Position numbers and translations under genes: made by a program
Origin: a virus
DNA: 28,772 bases
Direction: 5' to 3' (one strand)
Virus record (IMG/VR): IMGVR_UViG_3300030110_000885
Span: 1 to 28,772 of that record
The notes under the pieces: model-generated
What the model saw: only the letters and a program-made list of their open reading frames with translations
What the model was told of the DNA's origin: nothing
Databases searched by the model: none
In this document: positions 4,694-10,038 of the stretch, piece after piece
Layout: the number at the start of each line of letters is the position of its first letter
Position numbering within the stretch: position 1 is the first letter of the stretch

Positions 4694-5062
4694 TTAAGTT
4701 AGTAATTTGATTGGTTCTTGGTAAAAAGGTACTTTACTTTTAGGCATATCTAATTTTGTTACTTGATATTCTGCGTCTTCTACTACTTTTTTATGTGCGT
4801 ATGTCCATTTATAAAAGGTTCTAATATTTAAAAAGGGTTCATCTTTACTGAACCTTACGCCCTGATGAAATGCATCTACTATTTGATTAAAAGTCATATT
4901 TTTAAATCTATTTTCTTTTTTTAAATCCTCTGCAAATATTTTACTTAGTGTAGCCATAGTTTGTGCATCAGGTTTTTGCCCTATTTCTACAGATGTTTTT
5001 GCAATAAGGTCTAAGACTTTACTTGTTAATTCTTTAATGTTTTCTTGTTGTAGTGTTTTCAT
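4694..5062 (-). CDS. Uncharacterised protein, possible helicase loader or replication accessory
   Basis: About 122 residues. I placed the start at the ATG (MKTLQQENIKEL), which overlaps the upstream stop as ATGA, in preference to a TTG eight codons further upstream. It is helical throughout, with an N-terminal helical bundle and a NMTFNQIVDAFHQGVRF segment followed by LNIRTFYKWTYAHKK. It lies immediately downstream of the winged-helix replication gene. In many phages that slot holds a helicase loader or replisome accessory, but I see no Walker motif, so the role is only suggested by place. Confidence 0.55.
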   Translation of the reverse strand: MKTLQQENIKELTSKVLDLIAKTSVEIGQKPDAQTMATLSKIFAEDLKKENRFKNMTFNQIVDAFHQGVRFSKDEPFLNIRTFYKWTYAHKKVVEDAEYQVTKLDMPKSKVPFYQEPIKLLT

Positions 5063-5679
5063 AATAGTTTCTTGGCTTCTTGCCAAGCATTTATTTGTGA
5101 ATGAAGTTTTGATGATGATGCTCTTTTATTTTTATCCTTTTTCTCCCAAGTCCTGATAGCTGCCTTCCAGTCTTTCATTTTGTTTTTACCTATCATCCAA
5201 CCTTTACTATCATAAAAATCAATAAAAGATTCAGCATTAATACTATTCTCCCTTTCAATGCAATAATCTGTAACATCTTTGACAGTCGGTTTGATAAAAT
5301 ATTTATTATTTATTTTTATTTCTTTATTCTTATTAATAGAAGTTAAATTTTTATCGGACAAGTTGTTTAAAATTTGAAGGACTTGTTCTTCATTTATTTT
5401 GAAGAATTGTTTTGCGGGTATTCCCATACGCTTCACACGTATGAGTTGATAGTTTTTAAGTGTTTTAAGACACTTTCTTTGGTGATACGAGTTTAGCGTA
5501 GTATCAGCTTCTATATTTGCTTCTGTGTTAAAAAACCAGCCGTCAGTCATACCTTGGCTTATAAAGTATTCTTCTTTACTTATTAAATCTGCAAGTAATA
5601 CCGCTTCTTTCAATCCTATTTTTTTTGCTAGTTCTTTATTTAAAATTAAAAATGCGGTACTACTAAGCAGGTGTTTCAT
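5059..5679 (-). CDS. Phage replication initiator-like protein (winged helix plus DnaD-like tail)
   Basis: A 206-residue protein. Residues 1-110 look like the winged-helix domain found in phage replication proteins: FLILNKELAKKIGLKEAVLLADLI, DGWFFNTEANIEADTTLNSYHQRKCLKTL and a wing ending in PAKQFFKI. After a low-complexity N/K linker (about 110-130), residues 140-190 carry FIDFYDSKGWMIGKNKMKDWKAAIRTWEKK. I recognise that conserved tail from many phage replisome-organiser/DnaD-like proteins. The likely role is binding the phage origin and recruiting helicase or loader. It overlaps the upstream DnaA-IV-like gene by 4 nt and the downstream gene by 4 nt. Confidence 0.7.
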   Translation of the reverse strand: MKHLLSSTAFLILNKELAKKIGLKEAVLLADLISKEEYFISQGMTDGWFFNTEANIEADTTLNSYHQRKCLKTLKNYQLIRVKRMGIPAKQFFKINEEQVLQILNNLSDKNLTSINKNKEIKINNKYFIKPTVKDVTDYCIERENSINAESFIDFYDSKGWMIGKNKMKDWKAAIRTWEKKDKNKRASSSKLHSQINAWQEAKKLL

Positions 5680-6194
5680 ATAAGTTTTACGTTGAAGTGA
5701 TAATTTGCCAAGGCGAATTTAATAAATTTTAATTGGTCGGCAAAATCAAAGTAAGTTGTTTTTATTACGCAACGACATTGCCCACTTGTAACTTTAATTT
5801 TTACCTCAGCAATTGGATTTTCTTTTACACCATTTTTTAATAAGTGTTCTTTCATAATTTCACCATTAATGAAAACTTCTTTACTCCCCTCAATATCTAA
5901 ATATGCTTTGTATATTTTGTTGAATGTTTCCCTGTAAATAGGGCAAGTTTTGTAGTGTGACTTATGAGTAGATTCATAATAATATATCAATGTTCTATCT
6001 CTATTTAAAACTTCAGCAATATAATTTTGATGTATTCCTTCTTCATATCTACCTATATATGCAGCAACCTGTCTTACAACTTGCAATTCTCTTTTCCTGC
6101 TTTTACTTGATATAATATCTTCAGGTAAATTCATTGTTTTTGTTGCTAATTTACAGATAGATTTGAACTTTTCAATGTATTCAATATCTCTCAT
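5676..6194 (-). CDS. DnaA domain IV-like DNA-binding protein
   Basis: A 172-residue protein whose first 90 residues match the C-terminal DNA-binding domain of DnaA (domain IV). It has SSKSRKRELQVVRQVAAYIGRY, then a helix-turn-helix with IAEVLNRDRTLIYYYESTHKSHY, where the RDRTL corresponds to the DnaA signature that reads DnaA boxes. The AAA+ domain of DnaA is absent. The remaining 80 residues (GEIMKEHLLKNG, EVKIKVTSGQCRCVIKTTYFDFADQ) have no assignment. It may bind DnaA-box-like sites in the phage origin or host oriC; that is inferred. It is flanked by SSB-like and replication-initiator genes. Confidence 0.7.
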   Translation of the reverse strand: MRDIEYIEKFKSICKLATKTMNLPEDIISSKSRKRELQVVRQVAAYIGRYEEGIHQNYIAEVLNRDRTLIYYYESTHKSHYKTCPIYRETFNKIYKAYLDIEGSKEVFINGEIMKEHLLKNGVKENPIAEVKIKVTSGQCRCVIKTTYFDFADQLKFIKFALANYHFNVKLI

Positions 6195-6808: not shown

Positions 6809-6893
6809 AAAAAAAGGTAGTGACAAGGAATTGATAATACCACAAAGTATAACCGCTCAGTTATTAATTGATTACCTAACCTCATCACCACCT
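6809..6893 (-). terminator. Long composite hairpin with U7 tail (terminator/attenuator-like RNA)
   Basis: Directly after the stop of the upstream gene, the minus-strand RNA can form a 14-bp closing stem (6880-6893 with 6815-6828). It contains three or more G-U pairs that on the plus strand would be mismatches. Inside are a 6-bp stem (6871-6876 with 6833-6838) and a 5-bp apical stem (6860-6864 with 6849-6853, loop of 6). Seven T residues follow at 6815-6809. This is the form of an intrinsic terminator, with an unusually elaborate stem. It could attenuate or set the ratio between the upstream recombination gene and the SSB/replication genes. Confidence 0.6.
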
Positions 6894-6896
6894 ATA

Positions 6897-7283
6897 CTAG
6901 TTCTTTTTAAATTCTTCTGATTCATCTTCACCAAACACTCCTAACTCATAGAACCCTGTTAATTTTAATACTGCTCTTGACATTGCTCTTTTTTCAGCCA
7001 TTTCCATAACATACCAGCTATTAGTGTTTCCGTCTTTATATCCTTCGCCTTTTAAAGCACTTCCGAATGTTTGAATTGTATTTGAATCTTTAATTGCGAT
7101 AGCGTGTAATACGCAAAAATCTTTTTCACACTTAATTACATTATAATCTATTTGTATATTTTCTATCGCTTGTATCTTTTCTATACCACTTCTTGTGATA
7201 ATAATGTAGTGTTGATGCTTGAATACATCTTCTTTTGTAAGATTGTATTTAATATACTTCTCTTTTAGTATTTCAGTTTTCAT
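6897..7283 (-). CDS. Putative single-strand annealing/recombination protein
   Basis: A 128-residue protein. It reads YNLTKEDVFKHQHYIIITRSGIEKIQAIENI, then a beta segment with CEKDFCVLHAIAIKDSNTIQTFGSALKGEGYKDGNTNSWYVMEMAEKRAMSRAVLKLTGFYELGVFGEDES. The EMAEKRAxSRAVLKL...G-x-GEDE helix is a hallmark I associate with Rad52/Erf-like phage recombination and ssDNA-annealing proteins. The protein is shorter than classical RecT/Red-beta (about 260 residues). It is encoded just upstream of the SSB-like and replication genes, which fits. The exact family cannot be fixed by eye. Confidence 0.5.
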   Translation of the reverse strand: MKTEILKEKYIKYNLTKEDVFKHQHYIIITRSGIEKIQAIENIQIDYNVIKCEKDFCVLHAIAIKDSNTIQTFGSALKGEGYKDGNTNSWYVMEMAEKRAMSRAVLKLTGFYELGVFGEDESEEFKKN

Positions 7284-8649: not shown

Positions 8650-9197
8650 TGTTTTAGTTAATACGTTAGCCCCGTTTGGTAAGGTGGTTGCCTTTTGCCT
8701 TTATGTTTTGTAGAGGTCGCTAGTGGGAATGGTTTTTCTCCATTTCGTATTGGAATTGCAATTCCTCACCACCGATGCGACATTTTAAGGTTCTCACACC
8801 CCGAGTTGTATTCTAGAAATACCTCCCGCTCACTCATACATCTTTATATTTTAAAAAAAGTAGTTAGGGCTTCTAAGCAGAATAAATATTATTGATAGAT
8901 TTTAGTTTTCACTAAGCTAATTATTCCTTTCACCGCTATCAAACGGCTTACTGTAGATGTGTTTAAAGACTTATCTTTCTCCCATTTTGCCTAAGAAACA
9001 ACTTTTGATTTTTGGTTAATCATAAGCATTTGGTTATTCTCTTATAATCGTTTAGCTATAAACTTCACTACTCAACCTCATTGTTTAGGGTACTCTTTCA
9101 ACCCGTTCCTCACAATTTAACTTACCTTTCGGTAAAGCAAGTTTCCTACTTTTGTACTTATTTCAATGAACTTTTCAAAGTTTTTAACCCCTTTGAT
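8650..9197 (-). ncRNA. Candidate long structured RNA or early-operon leader (about 550 nt)
   Basis: About 660 bases (8644-9315) have no convincing gene on either strand; the longest minus-strand frames are under 30 codons. Downstream of the predicted promoter the transcript can form several hairpins. One is UUUACC-GAAA-GGUAAG (9121-9136). A nested pair joins 9112-9116 with 9080-9084 and 9101-9104 with 9088-9091. A 9-bp stem pairs 9041-9049 with 9018-9026, with two G-U pairs. A 7-bp stem (8936-8942 with 8892-8898) encloses a second GAAA-capped hairpin (8902-8915). More hairpins lie at 8808-8822 and 8728-8744. Longer-range options are 8866-8871 with 8668-8673 and 8768-8773 with 8683-8688. GNRA loops and nested stems suggest a folded RNA. 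Whether it is a separate RNA or a 5' leader is open: no intrinsic terminator is visible before the first gene. Confidence 0.5.
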
Positions 9198-9201
9198 GAA
9201 A

Positions 9202-9232
9202 CAAAGATACAAACATTTTTTGGATTAACAAA
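9202..9232 (-). promoter_or_regulatory. Bacteroidetes-type promoter of the early region
   Basis: On the minus strand, TTTG (9232-9229), a 19-nt spacer and TATCTTTG (9209-9202) match the Bacteroidetes primary-sigma promoter (TTTG, 17-23 nt, TAnnTTTG) exactly. Transcription should start near 9195-9197 and run through the non-coding leader into the early genes. This is the best promoter found in the window. Confidence 0.8.
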
Positions 9233-9299: not shown

Positions 9300-9325
9300 A
9301 AAAAAAAACTAAAAATTATAGTTCC
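9300..9325 (-). terminator. Weak intrinsic terminator after the lysis cassette
   Basis: On the minus strand the end of the metallophosphoesterase gene (including its stop codon) can form a short AU-rich hairpin (9319-9325 with 9305-9311), followed by T residues down to 9300. The stem is weak, so it may terminate late transcription only partly before the early promoter. Confidence 0.35.
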
Positions 9326-10038
9326 ATTAGTAAATTTAGGGGGGTTTTTCCGTTATTTAAGACAACTGCAACGCCCACGGCTGGTCGTTTTCCATATTTT
9401 GCATACGCCATTGCATACGATTTTTGATTAATTCCGCAGCCAACTTGTGTTCCAAAGACACGAAAATTCTTACCCACATAATGCTCTGTGTAACATTGTG
9501 TATGTAAATGCCCTTGAACTGTGTTCATCATATCTGCCCTGCATTTGGTTCTAGCGGTTCCGCCTTCTCCGTGTATGTATTGAACTCCGTCCTTAACATA
9601 TCTTTCTACAAAATTCCAATTAGGAGTTTCTAGCACTTCTTTATATGATTTTATCCACTTACTAGGTATAGCTGAAGTTTGTGCCTTACGCATAATTATA
9701 CGGTCGTGGTTACCGATTATTACTGTCGCTAGAGGAAAAGCATTACGCCATCTTGCTATACGTTGAATAGCTAGGTGAAGTTCATCTGCACCGCCCATAC
9801 CGTCTGCTGATGTTTCGTGATAACTAGAAAAATGATTATCAATCACATCACCAATAAAGACAACTTCTGTGCAATTAAATTCATAATACTTATCTATACA
9901 AAATTCTAAGTAACTATCAAGGCAGAAGGGCTCGTGCAAGTCACCGATAACTAGGACATTCCTAGCTTCGGTTTCTCGCATTTTTTCTAAAGCCACTATC
10001 TCGTGTGGCTTCAATCTATATCTATTGTTTTTTTGCAA
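9316..10038 (-). CDS. Metallophosphoesterase
   Basis: A 240-residue calcineurin-like phosphoesterase with all core motifs in order: GDLHEPF (about 32-38), GDVIDNH (62-68), GNHD (about 109-112), HGEG (about 155-158) and GHLHTQ (about 176-181). These bind a pair of metal ions and hydrolyse phosphomono- or diesters; substrate is unknown. It ends the lysis cassette. The only usable full-length start is TTG, overlapping the upstream small membrane-protein gene by 17 nt: an in-frame stop lies four codons upstream and the first ATG is at residue 20, which would remove a conserved-looking RYRLKPHE segment. Confidence 0.85.
   Translation of the reverse strand: MQKNNRYRLKPHEIVALEKMRETEARNVLVIGDLHEPFCLDSYLEFCIDKYYEFNCTEVVFIGDVIDNHFSSYHETSADGMGGADELHLAIQRIARWRNAFPLATVIIGNHDRIIMRKAQTSAIPSKWIKSYKEVLETPNWNFVERYVKDGVQYIHGEGGTARTKCRADMMNTVQGHLHTQCYTEHYVGKNFRVFGTQVGCGINQKSYAMAYAKYGKRPAVGVAVVLNNGKTPLNLLMEL

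Follow-up and report, generated by a model that had tools for sequence, protein, structure and literature searches.

What, if not a protein, is encoded between the early promoter of a phage and its first early gene when 558 nt separate the two? The question is raised by the window analysed here, that is, the whole stretch of 28,772 nt covering positions 1 to 28,772 of IMG/VR record IMGVR_UViG_3300030110_000885. The source is a 30.5-kb virus record whose main genes all lie on the minus strand, in the order structural genes, a holin-like protein, a metallophosphoesterase (9316-10038), the region studied here and then small early and replication genes. At the protein level its nearest relatives are IMG/VR contigs, the seawater Nonlabens phages P12024S/L being more distant, and because of these relatives the host is probably a marine flavobacterium. 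Among the early genes there is also a protein with a DnaA C-terminal-like helix-turn-helix (5676-6194; Pfam 29.9 bits, slightly below the cut-off of 31.5), which is adjoined by a replication-initiator-like protein (5059-5679). Our answer to the question, in which we place somewhat more trust than doubt, is that minus-strand positions 9171-8856 are a boxA-led, exchangeable non-coding RNA gene, expressed first in infection and probably acting in trans. Its parts are collected in Table 1.

Table 1. Features of the region between the early promoter and the first early gene (window coordinates).
Feature	Position	Strand	Observation
Bacteroidota promoter TTTG-N19-TATCTTTG	9202..9232	minus	exact consensus; TTTG 9232-9229, 19-nt spacer, -7 box TATCTTTG 9209-9202
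boxA-like element GTTCATTGAAATA	9159..9171	minus	13-mer match in other phages; core in Bacteroidota 16S leaders
Type A structured ncRNA, ~298 nt	8856..9153	minus	homologues L123, L052; covariation; model R2
Type A closing helix, 8 bp	9153-9146 with 8863-8856	minus	
Type A long-range helices	9140-9135 with 8992-8987; 9111-9105 with 8999-8993	minus	two-sided changes
Hairpins inside the long-range helices	9104-9101/9091-9088; 9080-9072/9067-9059; 9049-9041/9026-9018	minus	two-sided changes
Type A 3' hairpin GCCGUU-UGAU-AGCGGU	8932..8947	minus	one two-sided change, L123 vs window
Linker TTTAAAATATAAAG	8842..8855	minus	past the U-run
Extra module X	8705..8841	minus	absent from L123; fold z -1.76
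Conserved 34-nt mRNA leader AAAGGCAAAAGGCAACCACCTTACCAAACGGGGC (AAAGGCARRNGCAACCACCTTACCAAACGGRGC)	8669..8702	minus	78-83% identity in L121-L126
First early ORF, 63 aa	8452..8643	minus	PHROGs and Pfam: no match

An early promoter without a nearby gene

A sequence-only reading of this DNA had described an exact Bacteroidetes-type promoter followed by some 550 nt with no convincing gene, and both observations hold. Namely, the promoter agrees with the consensus at every defined position, and the 558 nt from its -7 box to the first early ORF contain, on the transcribed strand, no ORF of at least 40 aa, nor do they share a frame with the homologous region of phage L123, which rules out a hidden small gene, including the conserved small protein that had been set against an RNA. 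The amount of non-coding DNA is indeed unusual, as had been surmised: in the relatives with both promoter and ORF resolved (n = 70), the distance between the two is most commonly 23-39 nt, lies within 4-101 nt in 66 and within 170-360 nt in the remaining four. The GC content of the studied region is 35%, as against 33% in the whole window and 18% in the promoter region. On the minus strand there is no second TANNTTTG between the promoter and the early ORF, so that one transcript probably spans the RNA and the early genes. A search of the leader for an intrinsic terminator found none.

Comparison with known RNA families

Membership in GOLLD, ROOL or flavo-1, the families named for this stretch, was not borne out. 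In the window, Rfam 15 with all its families, these three included, gave no match at gathering score or at E up to 10, while the same search recovered GOLLD in L236 and L089 at ~283 bits as a positive control. Neither ARAGORN nor Rfam found a tRNA or tmRNA in the window, and Rfam gave no match on L118, L119, L121, L123, L125, L126, L052 or on the type D RNA described below. A known RNA family is thereby ruled out.

One could still imagine a structural or storage RNA of the GOLLD/ROOL type, assembling into a homo-oligomeric particle, and we consider this quite improbable. GOLLD (RF02032) resembles the present RNA in being a large folded phage RNA of unknown function, and two other boxA-carrying phage contigs encode it together with a tmRNA. 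ROOL, for its part, is an ornate RNA of phage or prophage; the form studied is very abundant and non-essential, and both GOLLD and ROOL are known to form RNA-only cages (PMC12286853). However, GOLLD is longer, lies near tRNA arrays and has another sequence and fold, and ROOL is ~600 nt long and lies near tRNA islands, whereas the RNA in the window matches neither model, is half the size, lies outside any tRNA cluster and occupies an early rather than a lysis-linked position.

A fold conserved by compensatory changes

The proposal of a new large structured RNA had been based on local hairpins, and these turned out not to be real evidence; the structure is carried instead by covariation in other helices. 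In terms of folding energy the stems do not go beyond chance: shuffled sequences average -106 kcal/mol and the 542-nt leader comes to -105 (z 0.21), the opposite strand gives z -0.32 and the type A part alone z -0.14, and we have dropped folding energy as evidence of structure. The two GAAA-capped hairpins are both present as drawn (TTACC-GAAA-GGTAA at 9135-9122 and TTAGT-GAAA-ACTAA at 8915-8902), but they do not form the conserved core, and their loops are not conserved in the homologues. In particular, L123 lacks the first, whose loop in L052 is UAAAA, and retains the stem of the second under a longer loop, and the tetraloops were likewise dropped as a hallmark.

The homologues tell more. 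L052 retains the type A sequence at 78% identity as far as its contig end (BLAST against the relatives), and L123, recovered by a pattern scan, is 69% identical over 425 columns. The resulting alignment A2 comprises three sequences (window, L123 and L052), one of them partial, and yields a fold with a closing helix, two stacked long-range helices and four hairpins. Of its 48 pairs, nine show two-sided changes, and 97.7% of the cells are paired; none of 500 shuffles matched either the paired share or the two-sided count, and slid controls had 43-57% of cells paired. At least one two-sided change falls in each long-range helix and in each hairpin enclosed by them (8987..9140). That said, the closing helix (AAAAGUAG/CUACUUUU) does not differ between the two sequences that cover it, and is for this reason plausible but unproven by covariation. 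Together with the missing small protein, these covarying pairs support the proposal of a new large structured RNA, for which the folding-energy test had failed.

How widespread is type A? Among 89 loci, only the window, L123 and L052 scored convincingly with model R2, and two further pattern scans returned only L123 and L052. The single match in bacterial genomes, within a coding gene of an alphaproteobacterial MAG, was due to chance, and those in GenBank phages fell at the promoter region, at the start-codon region or were chance matches as well. Such rarity, with three copies only, and a folding energy of the whole region equal to that of shuffled sequence are what one would expect of decayed or chance non-coding sequence, i.e. 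of a functionless insertion remnant. We find this hardly credible, given the two-sided compensatory changes at 70-83% identity, the presence of the boxA 13-mer and the existence of B and D, sister families arranged in the same way.

A probable boxA element

The word GTTCATTGAAATA occurs as a single copy in the window. The same 13-mer stands shortly past the promoter and ahead of tRNAs in other phages (L089, L102 and L166), and immediately ahead of a tmRNA in L236 (boxA 7060-7072, tmRNA from 7074). For comparison with hosts we used eight Bacteroidota 16S leaders from plasmid-collection records: six contain GTTCYTTGA (GTTCTTTGA or GTTCCTTGA), and a seventh, that of Chryseobacterium fluminis, has ATCATTGAAATA ~75 nt ahead of the 16S match. 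Since the 13-mer precedes phage tRNAs and a tmRNA, and since its core is found in Bacteroidota 16S leaders, GTTCATTGAAATA is very probably a boxA as judged from its sequence. The chance of finding the 13-mer within 60 nt is ~5e-6, a figure that does not allow for our having picked the motif after inspection. A looser boxA pattern is by itself unspecific, its reversed control matching about as often in related records, and the argument therefore rests on the full 13-mer and its position.

The window thus carries two marks of a boxA-led stable RNA unit, namely a host-type boxA near the promoter and a conserved, folded, untranslated product. With bacterial rRNA leaders it has in common the promoter, the boxA whose core recurs in Bacteroidota 16S leaders and a long RNA domain whose two ends pair with each other; however, the product here is something other than rRNA, and type A has a closing helix of just 8 bp. 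Similar elements ahead of CRISPR arrays are reportedly used for the transcription of long RNA. In E. coli, boxA is both necessary and sufficient to form the rRNA antitermination complex (PMC10250234), and by analogy the element may act in the same way here. As in lambda nut and rrn, boxA would serve the transcription of a long RNA (PMC10250234), but here there is no evident N-like protein or conserved boxB, and boxA moves with an exchangeable RNA. It is possible that boxA in phage RNA units has been described before, our literature search having covered open papers.

Several further occurrences may be recorded at this point. In the related phage L039 (6860-7020), GTTCTTTGACATA lies directly behind the same early promoter, and the short stretch past it ends terminator-like ahead of the first ORF. 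In L137 (4484+), L172 (minus strand, 4051 in the reverse complement) and L183 (832+), promoter and boxA are followed by 380-830 nt with no ORF and no Rfam match there, which makes them further candidate RNAs. In the tRNA clusters of the large phages L102 and L117, boxA and the tRNAs are separated by unassigned non-coding stretches of 100-300 nt. Finally, the contigs with L236 7060-9363 and L089 1028-2646, which encode a tmRNA and a GOLLD RNA, were reached only via the boxA word.

An exchangeable cassette

Between the same promoter and the early genes, different phages carry different contents; searching with GTTCATTGAAATA as 5' word and AACCACCTTACCAAACGGRGC as 3' word brought up further cases. 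Type A occupies this slot in the window, L123 and L052, and in L052 type A is preceded by another module that has a 5' word of its own (fold z -3.86). Type B is found in L126, L125, L118 and L119 (24 pairs, eight with two-sided changes), and type C in L121 (15-bp closing stem, fold z -2.36). Type D (83 pairs, 17 with two-sided changes) is found in L058, L062 and L205, with the metallophosphoesterase gene upstream, and also ahead of an early-type ORF in L246, L247, L252 and L253. Instead of an RNA, L087 and L124 have a small ORF and L122 has nothing, and in the closest relatives, L003-L005, the promoter leads directly into the next gene, the region being wholly absent (BLAST). Nor is there an RNA at the same place in the cultured relatives, namely Nonlabens phages P12024S/L, Tenacibaculum phage Larrie and Flavobacterium phage 11b. 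In GenBank phages types B and D were not found, and the matches to type C were due to chance.

The exchange itself is seen most directly in L057 and L058, which are 87-98% identical over aligned segments on both sides, while the interval from promoter to next gene holds a 95-aa ORF in the former and GTTCATTGAAATA with a type D RNA in the latter. Because the identity ends precisely at the start of the boxA word, this word is part of the RNA cassette and not of the promoter; in other words, boxA and RNA are one exchangeable cassette. The RNAs themselves differ. Cross-searches with the family models gave no convincing score to one another's families, and the type D model R1 did not match the window. 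Despite short common words seen by eye, a single family of A and D is unsupported by model search or nhmmer, so that the two are separate and common only in position and boxA. Two other non-coding stretches, without boxA, were observed in the slot in L076/L079 (L079 ~6870-6960) and in L078 (~6970-7110), one of them closed by AAAGGGGG/CCCCCTTT.

Could the RNA nevertheless be a cis-acting regulated leader, i.e. a part of the early mRNA that controls readthrough or translation in the manner of a put/nut site or a riboswitch? Types A, B and C do lie between promoter and early genes, the window has no second Bacteroidota promoter, a U-run stands behind the closing helix, and boxA is by nature a cis element. 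On the other hand, the L014 contig has a type D copy, with GTTCATTGAAATA and a promoter of its own, in antisense orientation between the terminase gene and the structural gene that comes next, and this stand-alone copy, antisense to late genes, speaks for an RNA gene rather than a leader, at least as regards type D. What is more, near-identical phages lack the RNA, no terminator-like site was found, and one conserved cis switch would not explain why unrelated RNAs and a protein gene share the slot. We regard a regulated leader as rather unlikely: as first suggested for this region it is weakened for the group as a whole by type D, and it is conceivable for the RNA of the window, which probably shares a transcript with the early genes just as a cis-acting leader would.

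Proposed mode of action and significance

Returning to the boxA-led RNA gene that we favour, Nus loading, RNA processing, action in trans and a biological role are steps that we infer as follows. Host RNA polymerase would initiate at the early promoter (9232-9202), and boxA (9171-9159), emerging ~25 nt into the transcript, would recruit the Nus complex with which the host protects its untranslated rRNA. The polymerase so equipped could cross the long untranslated region with its U-rich end and reach the early genes. The RNA between the strands of the closing helix would fold into a compact domain, which probably persists, or is excised in a similar way to the release of rRNA from its leader-trailer helix, and the persisting or excised RNA would then act in trans.

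Phage genes that are expressed first often serve host takeover or counter-defence. Such a role appears the most likely one here, as a guess from position and turnover, since the RNA would be the first product of infection and its place is taken elsewhere by other RNAs or a protein gene. More tentatively, and with more doubt than confidence, we propose that in these marine flavobacterial phages tools for counter-defence or host takeover are exchanged at the first early slot, where structured RNAs, as portable cassettes with a host-type boxA, are interchangeable with small proteins. If so, the unrelated families (A to D and more) would be RNA effectors in the phage-host arms race, and the slot would give access to RNA-based counter-defence, of which few examples exist. 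In any case, several structured RNA families beyond any Rfam model are added in a widespread marine phage group, a Bacteroidota promoter with boxA and no ORF provides a sequence handle for finding more, and the arrangement points to phages making untranslated RNA with an antitermination signal borrowed from host rRNA. RNA anti-CRISPRs (Racrs) are reported to be phage small RNAs that act on host defence (PMC10651486), and action on host defence is also the role guessed for the phage RNA here; the difference is that Racrs mimic CRISPR repeats, whereas no repeat-like feature was recognised in the present RNA itself.

Elements between the RNA and the early gene

The U-run that comes after the type A closing helix is followed by the linker, which is also found on the 3' side of type A in L123, of type B in L126 and of type C in L121. 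Past it, the alignment with L123 skips from 8842 to ~8723, over module X, for which no homologues were found and which is possibly a second RNA cassette. The 34-nt leader stands ahead of differing first early ORFs in seven phages (L121-L126 and L087 are those listed), and in L122, which has no ncRNA, it lies directly past the promoter; it is possibly a protein-binding or translation-control site. Further on, two adjacent early ORFs have start regions (8663-8625 and 8461-8423) that are 79% identical over 39 nt, and this stretch is found again ahead of early ORFs in relatives.
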